In this document: positions 1,683 to 29,001 of the stretch, piece by piece
Position numbering within the stretch: position 1 is the stretch's first letter
Layout: each line of letters opens with the position of its first letter
DNA from: a virus
Reading direction: 5' to 3' (one strand)
Virus record (IMG/VR): IMGVR_UViG_3300031722_000126
Location: 1-29,001 of that record
Length of the DNA stretch: 29,001 nt
The notes under the pieces: model-generated
Databases searched by the model: none
The model's input: the letters and a program-made list of their open reading frames with translations, nothing else
Told to the model about the DNA's origin: nothing
Position numbers and translations under genes: made by a program

Positions 1683-3581
1683 ATGGCATTAAGTAGAACT
1701 TTAAATAGCCAACATATAGTATATCACGAACCTAGCTATGTGAGATACGGTGGTACTATATCACCAGATGATAACCCTAGAAGAAATGACGTAGGCTTAC
1801 CTGTTGTATTAAAAGAGAATCCTAGTAAATCAGATTTAACTAAGACTCCTTCTATAGCAAGTGGTGTGCCATCTATCATAAATCCTTATGCATTATTAGC
1901 GTTCCCTACGTTAGGCTCACAATTTAATCAAATTGTAGATAATCCATACAGCTCAGATAAATTTTCATCTTCTATAGCTAATGTAGCAACTGCTAATGGT
2001 AATACGAATGTAGAACCTACTGTATTCAATTTAGTTAATATTCCACCCGATGGAGCAGACGATGCATGGGTAAGTAAAATGCCCTATAGATATACAGATT
2101 TTCTGTACTGTAAATACTATAACGTTATTCCAAACAACCATTTAATAACACTTAGAAGATATCCAGCACCAGCTTACGATAACTTAGGCGTACCCTTAAC
2201 ATCAGATGATGCAAAAGGTGCTTGGCAATCTATGAATAAGGGTAAGTTTATGCCAATTGCTCAAGCTGTAACATGGGCAGGCGAAGAGACAGAGAATAAA
2301 ATGTCAGACATAATGGGATTCGAGGTTTCTATGAACTGGAAAGAATTTGAAGCAAATGTTGAAAATGTACATGGTAATGAACAACAGTCATCTGACGGCC
2401 CAGGCATTTTTGAAGGTGTAGCTAATATTCTTACAGCAGTATCAGGAACTATCACTGGAAATAAAGTAAGCGCTTTTGAAGAACATAATGCACAATATGA
2501 TCCCTATGCAAATGGACCTTACTCACATAGAGTATATGGACCAGTTAACGTTATATCTAAAACGTATAAACGTGATAGAGGATTAGATTATAAACAGTCA
2601 TTTAATATTAACTTTCACTATAGTTTAAAATCTATCGGGAACATAAATCCTAAGGCAGCAATGTTAGATATTATGTCGAATATGTTACAACTGACATATA
2701 ATAATGCAGCTTTCTGGGGAGGTGCAAATAGATACTTCCCAAATAGACCCGTATATCCATTCTTGGGTGGACCAGGCGGTATGAATTCGTGGTACAGAGG
2801 TGATCCTGCAGGTTTCGTTCATTCAGTAGGAGCACAGATTTCTAAAGTAGCAAATGAAGTAGCAGGGTTCTTTAATGATCTGTTCAAAGATCCTATTGCA
2901 GCATTGAAACAACTTGCTACAAATGGTGCTTCAATGGCTATGGCAACACTCGGAAGAGGTAAAGCCCCAGATATTGTAGGTATGAAAGCTCTATTAACTG
3001 GTGAGCCTATTGGTGAATGGCACATGGTAGTAGGAAATCCTTATGCTCCTACTATGATGATCGGTAATCTTATCTGTAAAGGAGCAAAATTCACATTTAA
3101 TGATACATTGGGAGCAGATAACTTTCCAACTGAATTGAAAGTTACTATTAATATGGAACATGGTAGACCAAGAGATAAGGGTGATATAGAATCAATGTTC
3201 AATATGGGTGAAGGTAGAATCTACTATGCCCCTATGCATAGCGGAAACGTTTTCAATTCATCTGCACAGTATAATTCACCGAATGATACAACTGGTATTA
3301 AAGGATCAGGACAGACTCAAGCAACGAATGCGAATAATCAAATAGAAAGTTTTGCAGTACATAGAGCTTCTGCTAAGCATACTGTTTCAAGAAGAAATTC
3401 AAAGAATGGTGATTGGATAGGTTATTTGGGTATGACATATAGACCAGGTTCTGGAGATTTCGATGCTATAAAAACAGAAACTAGTGATACATTCCACCAC
3501 CTTGCATCAGCAATGGGATTAGAATCTGCACACGTTAAACAAGGAGCAGGTGGAACTTACAATAATAAAACAAAACCTTAA
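1683..3581 (+). CDS. Virion structural protein, putative baseplate/tail-tube initiator
   Basis: A 632-aa protein that opens the tail operon. The middle (about residues 330-375) is rich in Gly, Pro, Trp and Tyr (WGGANRYFPNRPV, PFLGGPGG). About residues 445-525 contain the best-conserved-looking block: GNPYAPTMMIGNLICKG, then a strand-rich segment and HGRPRDKGDIESMF. The GNP..P pattern followed by beta structure recalls the tube-like domains of baseplate tube-initiator proteins (T4 gp48/gp54 type), but I cannot confirm this by eye. No membrane anchor or catalytic motif is seen. It is preceded by a terminator and a GATATATA box. The next gene starts 1 nt after its stop. Structural role is likely; the exact subunit is uncertain. 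Confidence 0.75.
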   Translation: MALSRTLNSQHIVYHEPSYVRYGGTISPDDNPRRNDVGLPVVLKENPSKSDLTKTPSIASGVPSIINPYALLAFPTLGSQFNQIVDNPYSSDKFSSSIANVATANGNTNVEPTVFNLVNIPPDGADDAWVSKMPYRYTDFLYCKYYNVIPNNHLITLRRYPAPAYDNLGVPLTSDDAKGAWQSMNKGKFMPIAQAVTWAGEETENKMSDIMGFEVSMNWKEFEANVENVHGNEQQSSDGPGIFEGVANILTAVSGTITGNKVSAFEEHNAQYDPYANGPYSHRVYGPVNVISKTYKRDRGLDYKQSFNINFHYSLKSIGNINPKAAMLDIMSNMLQLTYNNAAFWGGANRYFPNRPVYPFLGGPGGMNSWYRGDPAGFVHSVGAQISKVANEVAGFFNDLFKDPIAALKQLATNGASMAMATLGRGKAPDIVGMKALLTGEPIGEWHMVVGNPYAPTMMIGNLICKGAKFTFNDTLGADNFPTELKVTINMEHGRPRDKGDIESMFNMGEGRIYYAPMHSGNVFNSSAQYNSPNDTTGIKGSGQTQATNANNQIESFAVHRASAKHTVSRRNSKNGDWIGYLGMTYRPGSGDFDAIKTETSDTFHHLASAMGLESAHVKQGAGGTYNNKTKP

Positions 3582-12351: not shown

Positions 12352-13515
12352 ATGCCAAAAGCATTAGTTGAAAACAAAACAATCGTTAAACAAAATTCAA
12401 AGGATAAAATCTATTGCCATGAATCTTATACACAAGAAATGTATGACAGGTTCAATGGGATCGATATCAAACCTAAAGACGTTAAGCTTGGTCAAAGTTT
12501 AAAAGCTCTAGATTTGGAAGTCCTAAATACCGGTGAAGTTGAAATTCACACCGACGCAGGAATAGACATCTATCTTGACATGCGAAAAGAAAAGAAATAT
12601 TTCGAAGCTATTGGTATTACAGATTTCAGTATAGAAAATCTTAAGAGATTATCTAGAGAAGGAGTATTCAAATATCTGTTCAAGGAGAAAGATGAATATG
12701 TAGTCCTAAAAGGAAAAGAAGGTGCTGAAAGAGGAACATTGTATGATTCACATTTAAGTTTCGTACGAAGAGAGTTTACAAAACAGATTACTTTACAATC
12801 TAACGCATACGTAGCAAAAGTTATTTCGAAAAATCAAGGTGGTTTCTTCATTTTGGTCGGTGGAGTAGAAGCATTCTTGCCTGGATCATTAGCTGCTGCT
12901 AATAAAATCGTAAACTTCGATACCTTTATCGGTAAAGAAATTAACGTAATGGTTGAAGATTATCTACCAGCATCAGATACTTATATCTTCTCATATAAGA
13001 AATATCTAGAGAAAATCTTGCCTTCTAGAATGGCAGCATTAGATAGAACAGCTAAACACGTAGGTATTGTAACAGGAGCAAGTAAATACGGTATATTCGT
13101 AGAATTTGAAGAAATTTTCACTGGTCTTTTACATAGTACTGAAATGACTGAATCTACTCTAGAGAAATTCAGTTCTTACAAATATCGTCCAGGCGATAAA
13201 ATTGAACTATGGGTTAAAGATATTAAAGGTGACAAATTAATTCTAACAGAAATCGATCCTTCACAAAAAGTCGATGAACTTAAAACATTCAAAGATAAAG
13301 TTGAAGGAACAGTAATGTCTGTTAAAGCTTCTTCTATCAAACCTTTCGGAGTATTCTTCGAAATAGAAAAAGACTTAGTAGGTCTCTTACCAACTAAGGA
13401 ATTAAGAAAAATGGATGTTAGAGTAGAAGTAGGAGAATTTTATCCACTCTGTATATCATCAATTGAACCTGATACCGGTAAAATCTACTTATCAGCAATT
13501 AATGATTCTAAATAA
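12352..13515 (+). CDS. Ribosomal protein S1-like protein with repeated S1/OB domains
   Basis: A 387-aa protein with at least two clear S1 RNA-binding repeats and a more diverged one. They lie at about residues 151-216 (NAYVAKVISKNQGGFFILVG...EAFLPGS), 234-302 (AKHVGIVTGASKYGIFVEF...TGLLHSTEM, then RPGDKIELWVKDI) and 316-385 (VEGTVMSVKASSIKPFGVFF...VGLLPTKEL). The 'G.V......G.fV.....GllH.sem' pattern is characteristic. Residues 1-120 resemble nothing I know. Host S1 binds mRNA leaders on the 30S subunit, so a phage copy may steer ribosomes to its own A-rich, SD-less mRNAs or serve another RNA-binding role. It has a 27-nt spacer upstream without an obvious GATATATA box and is followed by a strong terminator. 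Confidence 0.85.
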   Translation: MPKALVENKTIVKQNSKDKIYCHESYTQEMYDRFNGIDIKPKDVKLGQSLKALDLEVLNTGEVEIHTDAGIDIYLDMRKEKKYFEAIGITDFSIENLKRLSREGVFKYLFKEKDEYVVLKGKEGAERGTLYDSHLSFVRREFTKQITLQSNAYVAKVISKNQGGFFILVGGVEAFLPGSLAAANKIVNFDTFIGKEINVMVEDYLPASDTYIFSYKKYLEKILPSRMAALDRTAKHVGIVTGASKYGIFVEFEEIFTGLLHSTEMTESTLEKFSSYKYRPGDKIELWVKDIKGDKLILTEIDPSQKVDELKTFKDKVEGTVMSVKASSIKPFGVFFEIEKDLVGLLPTKELRKMDVRVEVGEFYPLCISSIEPDTGKIYLSAINDSK

Positions 13516-13608: not shown

Positions 13609-15063
13609 ATGCAGGATAAACTTTTAAATTATAGTGCTTTATCGTCGTCTGTCGTGGGCGTAGAATATGAATTCTATAGCTTCAAGTCACCGAATATTAT
13701 AGCTAAAGAAGTAGCTAAAATATTGGGTAAGAAAGTATTGATTAGTAGAGCATCTGGAAATGTCAAAGATTCTAAATCGGCCAAATATACTGATGATGAT
13801 CTAGTAGCAAAAGTTACGACTACAGGAGCTAACGATAAGAATAAATCTGTTAGTAATGTTTCAAATGTGTTTACGCCTGAACTTCTTAGTGACAAAGAAA
13901 AAGCTAAGAAAAGCAAGTCAGAATTTGTGCCTACCGCTTCTACTTTAGTATTAAAGAGAGATTACAGCGGCGGAAGAGACATGAATGAATTAGTGACGGG
14001 CCCTCTACCATATGAAGAAGCAAGACTTACTATAATCAAAATTTTAGATTGGATACGATTAAATGGATGGACAGACAAAAGATGTTCTATGCATTTGAAC
14101 ATAAGCTTTAACCCATTTTTATCGAAATTGAAAAATGGAGTTTCACATTTGGAGCCTTTGAAAATGATCCTTTCATACGATGAAAAGTATATTTACGATA
14201 GATTTCCAAATAGAAAGAACAACGTATATGCTAAATCAGTGTATCAAATTCTTCCAGTTAATAAGTTTGTATTCCAAAGTACTGCCGATAATTTAGATCC
14301 AGCAAACTTCATCGTCCCAGATGAAAAATATTACGGCCTCAATTTTACAAAAAGAGTGCATAATTATCTAGAAGTTAGATATGTAGGAGGAAAAGATTAT
14401 GAAAAGAAAGTAAATAAAATATTAGAAGTATTAGATTATTCTATCTTAAAAATCTATAATGCATTACTTAACCCGGGAATTGATCTAACTGAAGCAGAAA
14501 AGCTAAGAGGTATGATGACTAATATGAGAAAGATAACTGAATCATTTTCAAGTCCTCAACGTTTCTTCATTGATTATCCAGCTATCAATGTACTAATCGA
14601 TATGAAAGGTAACATTGAAATAGTCAAGAGCTACTGGACAAGTTTACGTGAACAACTATTCAGTCTTATTATATCAGCTGGAGCAACAGAAGGTGTATTT
14701 AATTATGATACCGATATGTCTAAGCCTCAATTTAGATTCGGTAAACTAAAGAATGTTCATGAACTCAGAAATTTTGAAATTTTCGATAGTGAGTTTGAAG
14801 GAAGTGCATATGATTGTCTATTCTTTAGATGCAAATTACAGAATAGTAGAATAGATAATTGTTCATTAGTAGAATTTAATACAGTAGAAGATTCGACATT
14901 AGAATATTCATCATCATTAGGAACTAATACATTAGTCAACTGTTACATAAATTGTCCAGATTCCATAATCGAAGGTAGCATCAATGGTGGAGTAATAAGA
15001 AATGCTATACTTGGAGTAAGAGCAGACTTAACATCAGATGTTATGATAGTTAATCAGAAATAA
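13609..15063 (+). CDS. Putative amidoligase (GS-like COOH-NH2 ligase) with C-terminal beta-helix
   Basis: A 484-aa protein from ATG 13609. A TTG at 13567 opens the same frame but lies before the promoter box. Motifs fit the phage/bacterial amidoligase family: GVEYEF (17-22), RDYSGGRDMNELVTGPLPYE (117-136), CSMHLNIS (159-166) and NYLEVRYVGG (252-261). These correspond to the GxExE, ELvtpPL, HxNxS and hvEfR patterns of the glutamine-synthetase-like fold that uses ATP to join amine and carboxyl groups. Residues 375-480 look different: short irregular Cys/Asn/Ser-rich strands (FRCKLQNSRIDNCSL) suggesting a pentapeptide-like beta-helix. The substrate is unknown; peptide tagging of virion or wall components is possible. 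It is the first gene of its unit. Confidence 0.7.
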   Translation: MQDKLLNYSALSSSVVGVEYEFYSFKSPNIIAKEVAKILGKKVLISRASGNVKDSKSAKYTDDDLVAKVTTTGANDKNKSVSNVSNVFTPELLSDKEKAKKSKSEFVPTASTLVLKRDYSGGRDMNELVTGPLPYEEARLTIIKILDWIRLNGWTDKRCSMHLNISFNPFLSKLKNGVSHLEPLKMILSYDEKYIYDRFPNRKNNVYAKSVYQILPVNKFVFQSTADNLDPANFIVPDEKYYGLNFTKRVHNYLEVRYVGGKDYEKKVNKILEVLDYSILKIYNALLNPGIDLTEAEKLRGMMTNMRKITESFSSPQRFFIDYPAINVLIDMKGNIEIVKSYWTSLREQLFSLIISAGATEGVFNYDTDMSKPQFRFGKLKNVHELRNFEIFDSEFEGSAYDCLFFRCKLQNSRIDNCSLVEFNTVEDSTLEYSSSLGTNTLVNCYINCPDSIIEGSINGGVIRNAILGVRADLTSDVMIVNQK

Positions 15064-26591: not shown

Positions 26592-26664
26592 GGGACGATA
26601 GCTCAGTTGGTAGAGCACTAGATTGAAGATCTAGGTGTCGGCAGTTCGACCCTGCCTCGTCCTA
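26592..26664 (+). tRNA. tRNA-Phe: tRNA-Phe(GAA)
   Basis: A full cloverleaf: acceptor GGGACGA/TCGTCCT (G-T at the end), D arm GCTCAGTTGGTAGAGC, anticodon arm CTAGA-TTGAAGA-TCTAG, T arm GGCAG-TTCGACC-CTGCC, discriminator A. CCA is not encoded; the next bases are CA. Confidence 0.95.
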
Positions 26665-26730
26665 CAATTCTTTACCTTTGGTTTGGAATATTTAAAGGTT
26701 TTTAATATTGAACCCGAATCAATATTACAT

Positions 26731-26803
26731 GGGAGTATAACAAAGATGGACTATGTGCTGGCCTGAAAAACCAGAAATGTTGGCTCGGTACCAACTGCTC
26801 TCA
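26731..26803 (+). tRNA. Degenerate tRNA, possible second tRNA-Phe(GAA)
   Basis: Acceptor GGGAGTA/TGCTCTC pairs fully if two G-T pairs are allowed. The T stem is GTTGG/CCAAC, with an unusual loop CTCGGTA. The anticodon loop is CTGAAAA on a stem CTGGC/ACCAG, with one C-A mismatch. The D stem has only 3 bp (ACA/TGT). Reading it as tRNA-Phe(GAA) is consistent with the loop, but it may be decayed. An 8-bp inverted repeat (TAATATTG/CAATATTA) lies just upstream at 26703-26727. Confidence 0.5.
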
Positions 26804-26813
26804 CAGATAATAT

Positions 26814-26895
26814 GGGATTATCGTATAGTGGCAATTGCAAGGCTCTGTAAAAGCCTCCTCTTCGGAGTTCGTAGGTTCGAGTCCTACTAGTCCCA
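26814..26895 (+). tRNA. tRNA-Tyr: tRNA-Tyr(GTA)
   Basis: Acceptor GGGATTA/TAGTCCC, anticodon arm AGGCT-CTGTAAA-AGCCT, a long class-II variable arm (CTC-TTCG-GAG) as expected for bacterial tRNA-Tyr, T arm GTAGG-TTCGAGT-CCTAC, discriminator A. The D stem is short (3 bp). CCA is not encoded; CA follows. Confidence 0.93.
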
Positions 26896-26917
26896 CACGG
26901 ATGTAGATTAAATCTAC

Positions 26918-26991
26918 GGGTCCTTAGCTCAGTTGGCTAGAGCATCTGCCTTGCACGCAGAGGGGCATCGGTTCAAGTCCGATAGGATCCA
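26918..26991 (+). tRNA. tRNA-Ala: tRNA-Ala(TGC)
   Basis: Acceptor GGGTCCT/AGGATCC with a G3-T70 pair, the alanine identity element. Anticodon arm TCTGC-CTTGCAC-GCAGA, T arm ATCGG-TTCAAGT-CCGAT, discriminator A. CCA is not encoded. Confidence 0.95.
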
Positions 26992-27035
26992 CTTTGGGAA
27001 TTTATTCCTTGACAATCAGGAAAGACTGATGACCT

Positions 27036-27108
27036 GGAGTATAGGTCAAGCGGCTAAGATGTCACCCTGTCACGGTGTATGGAGCGGGTTCGACTCCCGT
27101 ATATTCCG
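27036..27108 (+). tRNA. tRNA-Asp: tRNA-Asp(GTC)
   Basis: Acceptor GGAGTAT/ATATTCC, anticodon arm TCACC-CTGTCAC-GGTGT with one T-T mismatch at the base, T arm GCGGG-TTCGACT-CCCGT, discriminator G as expected for Asp. CCA is not encoded; CA follows. Confidence 0.9.
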
Positions 27109-27201
27109 CAATTCAATGTATCATAATCGGTCAATCCACATCTAGCCGTTAGTATATTGAAGATGAAAGAAAGAAGTGGCTGCGACATTTTTTCATCAAA
27201 C
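27109..27201 (+). other. 93-nt intergenic spacer in tRNA array, possibly a decayed tRNA
   Basis: No gene is visible. It is roughly tRNA-sized. It has one 7-bp complementary pair (GATGAAA 27162-27168 with TTTCATC 27191-27197) but no recognisable T arm. It could be a decayed tRNA or a processing spacer. Confidence 0.2.
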
Positions 27202-27276
27202 AGTCTTTTAGCTCAGTTGGTTCAGAGCATCTGTTTTACAAGCAGAGGGTCATTGGTTCGAATCCAATAAGGACTA
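27202..27276 (+). tRNA. tRNA-Val: tRNA-Val(TAC)
   Basis: Acceptor AGTCTTT/AAGGACT (one T-G pair), D arm GCTCAGTTGGTTCAGAGC, anticodon arm TCTGT-TTTACAA-GCAGA, T arm ATTGG-TTCGAAT-CCAAT, discriminator A. CCA is not encoded; CA follows. Confidence 0.94.
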
Positions 27277-27283
27277 CAAACAT

Positions 27284-27354
27284 AGGAGTATGGTGCAATG
27301 GTAGCATATCGGATTCCAAACCCGCTGATCTGAGTTCGACCCTTAGTACTCCTG
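27284..27354 (+). tRNA. tRNA-Trp: tRNA-Trp(CCA)
   Basis: Acceptor AGGAGTA/TACTCCT is perfect, D arm GTGC/GCAT, anticodon loop TTCCAAA with anticodon CCA, T arm CTGAG-TTCGACC-CTTAG, discriminator G as usual for Trp. The anticodon stem TCGGA/CCCGC has mismatches at both ends, so it pairs at only three positions. Confidence 0.82.
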
Positions 27355-27367
27355 CAAATAGAATAAA

Positions 27368-27646
27368 ATGGAATGTGGAGATGAATTCTATATCTGGTGT
27401 AAACTTTATATAGATGGAAGGTTAAATACTACAGGATTTTTAGATGAGATAATAGGTGATAAAGATTGCCTTGTAAAAGTTAAGTTTATCGAATATCGTA
27501 CAATTACTAATACAGTATTTTTATTAGTAGAAAGAATGGATAAGAAATATCCATACAGAGCATTCATAAATAAAAACCGAATATTATCGGATGAAGAATA
27601 TCGTAGATTTAACATAGAACTTATAAGTGATAAGTTCGGATTTTGA
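27368..27646 (+). CDS. Hypothetical protein inside the tRNA array, 92 aa
   Basis: A 92-aa ORF, ATG at 27368, 13 nt after the tRNA-Trp. It has an aromatic- and acidic-rich N terminus (MECGDEFYIWCKLYIDGR) and a mixed strand pattern (NTVFLLVERMDKKYPYRAFI). It reads as a small beta-rich domain but I recognise no family. It ends 8 nt before the tRNA-Asn. It could be an independent cargo gene in the array. Its density of reasonable residues and tight fit between tRNAs support it as real. Confidence 0.6.
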   Translation: MECGDEFYIWCKLYIDGRLNTTGFLDEIIGDKDCLVKVKFIEYRTITNTVFLLVERMDKKYPYRAFINKNRILSDEEYRRFNIELISDKFGF

Positions 27647-27654
27647 AATAATAT

Positions 27655-27727
27655 GTGAGTATAGCTCAGTTGGTAGAGCAATAGACTGTTAATCTATTGG
27701 TCGTGGGTTCGAGCCCCGCTACTTACG
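27655..27727 (+). tRNA. tRNA-Asn: tRNA-Asn(GTT)
   Basis: Acceptor GTGAGTA/TACTTAC, D arm GCTCAGTTGGTAGAGC, anticodon arm ATAGA-CTGTTAA-TCTAT, T arm GTGGG-TTCGAGC-CCCGC, discriminator G. CCA is not encoded; CA follows. Confidence 0.95.
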
Positions 27728-27732
27728 CATAT

Positions 27733-27806
27733 GGATGTATAGCTTTAATGGTTAGAGCGGCGGCCTGTTAAGCCGAGGGTTACAAGTTCGAATCTTGTTA
27801 CGTCCG
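27733..27806 (+). tRNA. tRNA-Asn: tRNA-Asn(GTT), second copy with different body
   Basis: Acceptor GGATGTA/TACGTCC, D arm GCTTTAATGGTTAGAGC, anticodon arm GCGGC-CTGTTAA-GCCGA with one G-A mismatch at the base, T arm ACAAG-TTCGAAT-CTTGT, discriminator G. The loop gives GTT, the same as the preceding tRNA, on a clearly different body. CA follows the discriminator. Confidence 0.88.
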
Positions 27807-27817
27807 CAATTTTAAAT

Positions 27818-27893
27818 GGGTGGATCGTCTAATTGGTTAGGACGCGAGACTGATAATTTCGTAATCCGGGTTCAAGGCCCGGCCCGCCTACCA
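27818..27893 (+). tRNA. tRNA-Ile: tRNA-Ile(GAT), with encoded CCA
   Basis: Acceptor GGGTGGA/CCCGCCT with G-T pairs and one A-C mismatch, D arm GTCT/GGAC, anticodon arm CGAGA-CTGATAA-TTTCG, T arm CCGGG-TTCAAGG-CCCGG, discriminator A followed by CCA at 27891-27893. It is the only one of the array with a complete encoded CCA. Confidence 0.88.
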
Positions 27894-27896
27894 AAC

Positions 27897-27970
27897 ATTT
27901 GGGTAGCTCAGTTGGTTAGAGCGCTACACTGATAATGTAGAGGTCGTCAGTTCAATTCTGACTCTGAATA
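27897..27970 (+). tRNA. tRNA-Ile: tRNA-Ile(GAT), second copy with different body
   Basis: Acceptor ATTTGGG/TCTGAAT (three G-T pairs), D arm GCTCAGTTGGTTAGAGC, anticodon arm CTACA-CTGATAA-TGTAG, T arm GTCAG-TTCAATT-CTGAC, discriminator A. It starts 3 nt after the CCA of the previous tRNA-Ile. Confidence 0.9.
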
Positions 27971-28016
27971 CGTAATGGTTTTAAAGTTTGTACCATCTCC
28001 ATAAACAAACTCTCAA

Positions 28017-28091
28017 GGGGGCACATGTTCCATGGCTTGGCGATAGACATTTGCAATGTCTGTGAGGTGGATTCAATTTCCACTGTCTCCA
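28017..28091 (+). tRNA. tRNA-Ala: tRNA-Ala(TGC)-like, diverged
   Basis: Acceptor GGGGGCA/TGTCTCC pairs with G-T at positions 3-70 and 5-68. G3-T70 plus discriminator A fits alanine. Anticodon arm AGACA-TTTGCAA-TGTCT gives TGC; T arm GTGGA-TTCAATT-TCCAC is perfect. The D stem is weak (TGTT/GGCG, mostly G-T). There is an extra base between D and anticodon stems. Cys(GCA) was considered but does not pair. Confidence 0.65.
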
Positions 28092-28130
28092 CTGCAACAA
28101 TAATGTGACAGTTTTGTTCCTTGACATTTT

Positions 28131-28156: not shown

Positions 28157-28912
28157 ATGCCAAGAAAGCAACACAGTCATCATTACATCTACAAGACAAC
28201 TTGTAAAATTACTAATCGATATTATATCGGTATGCATTCTACAAGTAATCTTGAAGATAATTACATTGGATCAGGGAAGCGACTTTGGTTATCGATTAGA
28301 AAACATGGTAGGGAAAATCACATGAAAGAAATTCTTGAGTTTCTTGAAGATAGAAATGCATTGAAAGCAAGAGAAAAGGAAATCGTAAATAAGATGCTCT
28401 TAAAAGATCTTATGTGTATGAATCTTATAGAGGGTGGAGAAGGAGGATTTAATAATGAACTAATTTGGACGGGTAGAAAGCATTCTACTAAGACTAAAGA
28501 AAAATTCAGTATTACTCATTTAGGAGAAAAAAATTCTCAGTTTGGAAAAGTATGGGTGCATAATCACGAAAAGAGTGCATTTATTCATCACGATTTTTTA
28601 GATGACTATATTTCTAAAGGATGGGAAAGAGGTAGAATATGTCCAAGGATAAAAGAAAGTAAGCATAATTATTGTATGTCATGTGGAGAAGAATTGTATA
28701 ATCGTGCAACTTATTGCAGTATATGCACATATTATGCTAGATTTAAGGGGCTATTCAAAAAACTAGAAATAGTTGACACTAATTTAGGATTGGCAAAAGA
28801 TAATGCAATTTTAAAAATTATAGAATTAAAAAAGACTATGTCTTTAAGTTTAATACGTAAGCAGTTCGGTATACAACAGAACAGCATAGATTTATTAAAC
28901 AGATTGTCCTGA
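28157..28912 (+). CDS. GIY-YIG homing endonuclease
   Basis: A 251-aa protein. The N-terminal 90 residues are a GIY-YIG nuclease domain: YIYKTT (10-15), YYIGMH (22-27), DNYIGSGKRLW with the conserved Gly/Arg region at about 34-44, and AREKEIVN around residue 72 providing the catalytic Glu. The middle holds GRKHSTKTKEKFS, a NUMOD-like DNA-binding segment, and the C-terminal part has CMSCGE...CSIC (about 173-192), a zinc-ribbon-like module, followed by helices. This is typical of free-standing phage homing endonucleases of the T4 Seg type. It sits at the end of the tRNA array, where such mobile genes are common. It is probably selfish rather than needed for infection. Confidence 0.85.
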   Translation: MPRKQHSHHYIYKTTCKITNRYYIGMHSTSNLEDNYIGSGKRLWLSIRKHGRENHMKEILEFLEDRNALKAREKEIVNKMLLKDLMCMNLIEGGEGGFNNELIWTGRKHSTKTKEKFSITHLGEKNSQFGKVWVHNHEKSAFIHHDFLDDYISKGWERGRICPRIKESKHNYCMSCGEELYNRATYCSICTYYARFKGLFKKLEIVDTNLGLAKDNAILKIIELKKTMSLSLIRKQFGIQQNSIDLLNRLS

Positions 28913-29001
28913 TAGGATTCAGATTCAAAGGGGCGGAATGCAAATGACCAATCAGAGAGGTTCGATTCCTCGATGAGTAGGACCATTTTGAATTCGACAA
29001 T
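28913..29001 (+). other. Edge region with a tRNA-like T-arm remnant
   Basis: No gene is seen. GAGG-TTCGATT-CCTC resembles a T arm, and GTCCT (28906) can pair with AGGAC (28979). But three extra bases lie between T arm and acceptor and no anticodon arm fits, so it is at most a decayed or partial tRNA. The sequence continues past the window edge. Confidence 0.25.

Follow-up and report, generated by a model that had tools for sequence, protein, structure and literature searches.

The tRNA genes of a phage array follow a Bacteroidota rule of encoding C at position 74

Introduction

Why should every tRNA gene in a phage array carry a C directly after the discriminator, at position 74, when only one of them goes on to encode a full CCA? 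The question is raised by a 29,001-base stretch of DNA (the window), a virus record that holds baseplate, PhoH-like and further phage genes, and in which ARAGORN finds 12 tRNA genes at 26592-28092 (Table 1).

Results

The 12 genes have the structure of genuine tRNAs: six or seven of the seven acceptor pairs form in every one, and 11 of the 12 exceed the gathering score of Rfam RF00005. We placed the discriminator by structure alone, from the T-stem, the T-loop and a 7-bp acceptor stem, such that base 74 itself was never used. In this register, set by the T-arm and acceptor pairing, all 12 genes have C at position 74. The C fraction is 0.119 in the array spacers and 0.150 in the whole window, and the chance of such a run is P = 8e-12 with the spacer composition and 1e-10 with the whole-window composition; a preliminary description of the array, which had reported C74 throughout, was thus correct on its main point. 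It was also correct that a single tRNA-Ile, the one at 27818, encodes a full CCA (1/12), and the array does not belong to the CCA-encoding class. The extent that it gave, 26592-28091, is right except that it stops one base short of the final C74 (28092). Its claim that the C is usually part of a CA did not hold up: eight of the 12 genes have A75, at least eight having P = 0.047 given the A-rich spacers. We rejected CA as a signal, since base 75 tracks A+T content.

Table 1. tRNA genes of the window, with the discriminator (base 73), the position of C74 and the two bases that follow it
Gene (anticodon)	Position	Strand	Base 73	C74 at	Next bases	Remark
tRNA-Phe(GAA)	26592..26665	+	A	26665	AA	
tRNA-Phe(GAA)	26731..26804	+	A	26804	AG	second tRNA-Phe; unusual T-loop CTCGGTA
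tRNA-Tyr(GTA)	26814..26896	+	A	26896	AC	
tRNA-Ala(TGC)	26918..26992	+	A	26992	TT	
tRNA-Asp(GTC)	27036..27109	+	G	27109	AA	
tRNA-Val(TAC)	27202..27277	+	A	27277	AA	
tRNA-Trp(CCA)	27284..27355	+	G	27355	AA	
tRNA-Asn(GTT)	27655..27728	+	G	27728	AT	
tRNA-Asn(GTT)	27733..27807	+	G	27807	AA	
tRNA-Ile(GAT)	27818..27893	+	A	27891		sole full CCA
tRNA-Ile(GAT)	27897..27971	+	A	27971	GT	
tRNA-Ala(TGC)	28019..28092	+	A	28092	TG	under the Rfam gathering score

We considered an artefact of the gene finder as a source of C74 and rejected it, because ARAGORN is indifferent to this base and an independent scan agrees: when base 74 was swapped in silico, 12/12 window tRNAs and 60/60 host tRNAs were detected with each of the four bases, and a scan made without ARAGORN gave the same registers and the same C74 result for the array. 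Isoacceptors are duplicated in the array, with two each for Phe, Ala, Asn and Ile, and a homing endonuclease gene adjoins it (28157-28912; PHROG 314, E 1e-29), much as segB is located within the tRNA genes of T4.

In a near-identical contig (L001), the array has five more tRNAs, 17 in all, each with C74; this contig also provides an internal control. Beyond base 12650 it contains seven T-arm fragments that lack a proper acceptor partner or cloverleaf, and only two of these seven have C74, versus 17/17 cloverleafs of the same array; base 74 was not used to sort fragments from cloverleafs. Four further scan hits are not T-arms of a fragment and were left out of the count: one in the window, within an ORF (27635), and three in the contig, of which the hit at 14310 falls within a tRNA-Tyr and those at 14616 and 15122 have loops that lack TTC[AG]A. 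One of the seven fragments is also present in the window, at 28961 (28912-28995), directly after the homing endonuclease gene; it has a T-arm with four of five T-stem pairs, no good acceptor partner, and GACC after its discriminator.

The structural proteins of the window are closest to those of Bacteroidota phages. In a tblastn search, the closest matches to the tail protein encoded at 1683-3581 were phages of Prevotella, Tenacibaculum, Chryseobacterium and Flavobacterium; the 31 records matched comprise 15 from Prevotella, five from Tenacibaculum, two from Chryseobacterium, one from Flavobacterium, six that are uncultured and two of phage PAU, for which the host given is Sphingomonas. The nearest relatives of the baseplate wedge protein are huge metagenomic phages and Lak phages. 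Together, the tail and baseplate wedge matches indicate that the phage lineage of the window infects Bacteroidota. A search of the phage collection for close relatives of the window at the DNA level gave no match.

The C74 pattern is shared by related phages. Within the stretches of the related records that were fetched, 225 of 227 good tRNAs of seven megaphages have C74 (LR756500, 22/22; PAU, 5/6; Lak-A1, 28/28; LR756504, 35/35; LR756501, 54/54; Lak-B1, 27/27; LR745206, 54/55), and CCA is encoded by eight. Both exceptions have A74: a tRNA-Met from PAU (L048) and an undefined tRNA from LR745206 (L069). Good tRNAs are those that passed a quality filter (T-stem of 4 or more, acceptor of 6 or more, score of 15 or more), which removed 10/237 tRNAs from the relatives, 1/330 from the hosts, 5/113 from a set comprising KVP40, T4, phage G, Myrna and S-PM2, and 4/146 from a set comprising a Bacteroides and a Flavobacterium genome with LuckySocke, HGTV-1, S-SSM7 and pT24; one low-quality tRNA-Met of Lak-A1, with A74 and an acceptor of 5/7, was removed in this way before counting. 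Three other relatives (W02, W03 and W05) and Rhizobium phage RHph_I42 (W16) were examined for tRNA genes and have none. Although PAU is recorded on Sphingomonas, its tRNA ends are of the Bacteroidota type, with C74 in all but one and no CCA, and these gene ends call its host name into question.

The same pattern extends to Bacteroidota genomes. All 329 good tRNAs beside a Bacteroidota-type tuf gene, at 80 loci, have C74; among these loci we kept a record with the title Staphylococcus sp. (L096) and another from Chlorobiota (L091). By contrast with base 74, base 75 of these tRNAs varies (A, 151; T, 118; G, 31; C, 29), and 25 encode CCA. C74 is likewise found in 34/34 fetched tRNAs of a Bacteroides genome and 39/39 of a Flavobacterium genome, sets that cover nearly all amino acids, such that every fetched isoacceptor has C74. 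We also counted matches to the pattern AGCTCAG...GTTCRA...C in 148 Bacteroidota genomes, with either C or another base at 74. With C there were 2453 matches (control, 19), distributed over 148/148 genomes; with any other base there were 88 (control, 66), in 67/148 genomes. Five of these 88 come from a single contig (G071:C47), and most of the others are, by eye, visibly not tRNAs. The rule also applies to tmRNA, with C74 in all 19 of the genes that ARAGORN located at 20 loci and CCA in two. We therefore rejected the idea that C74 is a phage-specific feature, since tuf-locus tRNAs and 148 Bacteroidota genomes follow the same rule. The window, which has C74 regardless of bases 75 and 76, conforms to the rule that holds for tRNA and tmRNA genes in Bacteroidota: they encode C74 with or without the remainder of CCA.

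These counts bear on the possibility that C74 is a functionless relic of an ancestral encoded CCA, a possibility that would accord with the few genes still encoding CCA (25 of the 329 tuf-locus tRNAs). A relic would be expected to decay evenly. Positions 75 and 76 are indeed randomised, but 74 is invariant across the phylum, its phages and tmRNA, and the tRNA-like fragments of the phage array mostly lack C74. We consider a relic highly improbable.

The contig that contributed five of the non-C matches (L205; 13.2 kb) is from a genome assigned to Bacteroidota and has T74 in 6/6 tRNA genes; it may be contamination or a foreign element.

Phages of other hosts differ in how they treat base 74 (records L192, L197-L204 and L211-L215). 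Vibrio phage KVP40 encodes CCA in 28/28 tRNAs. C74 is found in 6/8 tRNAs of T4 and 13/16 of Bacillus phage G, the others having T74 (2/8 and 3/16, respectively). T74 is also frequent in cyanophages S-PM2 (C74, 11/24; T74, 13/24) and S-SSM7 (3/5 and 2/5) and in halovirus HGTV-1 (9/32 and 23/32). C74 without CCA is the rule in two actinobacterial phages (61/61), Mycobacterium phage Myrna (32/32, with one CCA) and Streptomyces phage LuckySocke (29/29, with two CCA), but not in the cyanophages or the halovirus. Tenacibaculum phage pT24 has C74 in 3/3 tRNAs. Across the 177 tRNAs of these nine phages, base 74 is never a purine; it is a pyrimidine throughout, though not always C.

We also searched Bacteroidota genomes for the enzymes that might read base 74. 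A full-length RNase Z match was found in 32/61 genomes and was missing from 29, of which 11 had no match at all, although all 61 genomes show C74. Unless the assemblies are incomplete, it is doubtful that RNase Z is the sole common cutter, given the C74 in the 29 genomes that lack a full-length match. These gaps raise the question of what matures tRNA 3' ends there. Of 39 RNase Z loci, six gave no segment and 33 were read; the PxKxRN loop, which has been linked with the rejection of CCA, survives intact in only one of the 33, such that these enzymes do not, as a group, carry the CCA anti-determinant. For RNase P RNA, the motif GGGU[A/G]G occupies the place of loop L15 at 25 of 26 Bacteroidota loci (25 being 18 + 7), which places these RNAs in the GGU type; no motif was found at L178, a partial match.

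Discussion

A base that does not vary when the bases next to it do, as at position 74, must either remain in the product or be recognised by an essential enzyme. Our preferred explanation, to which we give about an even chance, is that C74 stays in the mature tRNA, with a 3' nuclease cutting after C74 and the CCA enzyme adding C75 and A76. In these hosts, the 3' trailer would be removed just past C74 rather than past the discriminator; the mature tRNA would then contain a C74 copied from its gene, and only the last two bases would come from the CCA enzyme. The cutter would be RNase Z where that enzyme is present, and some other nuclease elsewhere. Any other base at 74 would leave the tRNA with an incorrect CCA end, such that phage tRNAs would need C74 to work.

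Several observations support a cut after C74. The constraint on base 74 is near-absolute while 75 and 76 are free, and C74 is mostly absent from the non-cloverleaf fragments (2/7). RNA-seq in Propionibacterium acnes (PMC3848588) and Streptomyces coelicolor (PMC4681348) mapped 3' cuts to the junction of the two Cs in encoded CCA, left unexplained in the sections of these papers available to us, and the actinobacterial phages in our comparison follow the C74 rule. A partly purified RNase Z from spinach chloroplasts, as described in part of another study, cuts after C74, with the rest then added (PMC3161902).

Other observations weigh against it. RNase Z, in organisms that bear it, including M. 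tuberculosis, mostly cuts just after the discriminator (PMC10673834), and P. acnes has no obvious RNase Z, according to a portion of the report on that species (PMC3848588). Ordinary RNase Z is, according to an excerpt of a survey, inhibited most strongly by C74 (PMC3161902); a phylum in which C74 is ubiquitous would therefore need either an altered RNase Z or a different enzyme. The rarity of an intact PxKxRN loop speaks for a cut after C74; however, E. coli (PTRTRN) and human ELAC1 (PSPTRG) vary from the motif found in B. subtilis (PAKARN) and human ELAC2 (PMKIRN), so the loop is not strictly kept elsewhere either, and this counts against the reading. The inhibition also makes it unlikely that C74 is a signal for host RNase Z in the usual sense, one role that the preliminary description had offered. 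Its comparison of choice, with related phages and host tRNA genes, found the excess of C common to both, and its link of C74 to 3' processing and the CCA-adding enzyme seems apt, whereas its idea of a substitute for CCA does not hold as a phage-specific device, the rule being that of the host phylum.

A cut after C74 is further weakened by the possibility that C74 instead serves RNase P. Here C74 would be kept for 5' processing, pairing in the precursor with a G of GGU in loop L15 of the RNase P RNA, and one encoded C together with the discriminator would suffice for the Bacteroidota enzyme. We judge this to be rather unlikely, although much is consistent with it. The GGU motif is kept in Bacteroidota, and this explanation would require no RNase Z, which fits the gaps among the 61 genomes. 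Pairing of U with R73, G with C74 and G with C75 is established, as set out in a part of one study (PMC4919922), and cyanobacterial RNase P lacks GGU, according to a part of another (PMC4264200), matching the loss of the C74 rule in S-PM2 and S-SSM7. Nonetheless, the second G of GGU, the partner of C75, is equally kept, even though C75 is encoded in only 29/329 tRNAs, suggesting that RNase P usually meets a completed CCA. The actinobacterial cuts between Cs would also be left unexplained. Moreover, T4 has tRNAs with U74 in a host whose RNase P is of the GGU type, as that of E. coli is.

The two mechanisms are compatible, and all of the evidence for either would also favour a dual use, in which C74 both persists in the mature tRNA and aids RNase P, so that selection would act twice; we consider such a combination unlikely. 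We regard as very unlikely a third alternative, that C74 halts exonuclease trimming, or makes ends at N73 and at C74 both good substrates for the CCA enzyme. CCA enzymes can complete partial ends, as parts of two reports indicate (PMC3848588, PMC4681348), but tolerance alone should not yield invariance.

Elements of a cut after C74 have precedents. In plant chloroplasts, as far as the relevant part of one study goes, many tRNA genes encode only the first C and an RNase Z fraction cuts after it, yet C74 occurs in about 17-32% of genes (PMC3161902), whereas here it occurs in essentially all, in bacteria, phages and tmRNA. The 3' cut after C74 seen in vivo in P. acnes and S. coelicolor is the same as that proposed here, but those cuts were reported for CCA-encoding genes and, in the sections available, were not linked to a C74 rule (PMC3848588, PMC4681348). 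The interaction between RCCA and RNase P RNA shares with Bacteroidota the kept GGU in L15, with which C74 could pair, but Bacteroidota genes encode just the 73-74 half of the partner. As in the CCA-less tRNA genes of the B. subtilis type, processed by RNase Z, CCA is not encoded and is added by the CCA enzyme; there, however, C74 is inhibitory, according to part of one source (PMC3161902), and cleavage follows the discriminator (PMC10673834), whereas here C74 is universal.

We propose, with a confidence slightly short of even, that Bacteroidota and apparently Actinobacteria may use a third tail mode, in which the first C is templated, the 3' cut falls after C74, and CA is added. With every tRNA and tmRNA gene templating at least the first C, this mode would lie between a fully encoded and a fully added CCA. 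If this is true, phages with tRNA arrays must match the tail mode of their host, and base 74 would also report the host group. We found no statement of the C74 rule for Bacteroidota in the open-licence PMC literature, which was the scope of our search. Surveys of CCA score genes as positive or negative, and most Bacteroidetes genes have been placed, in the part of one such source that we could consult, among those not templating CCA (PMC5143459); a phylum-wide first C means that such genes are not simply CCA-less. The rule offers one explanation for the cuts between Cs in two actinobacteria, allows a direct test of the 3' maturation site in an under-studied phylum, and provides a one-base criterion for whether a given host can mature a phage tRNA.

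Lastly, the continuation of the array beyond the end of the window (L001:13880-15115) contains a run of tRNA-like units in permuted order, T-arm then D-arm, in which the motif GAAGCGG...TTAC recurs. For one unit there is a match to YrlA (Y RNA-like) in Rfam, with 29.1 bits and E 7e-4, under the gathering score of 69; the run may represent a series of Y RNAs, or of mimics of tRNA, encoded by the phage.
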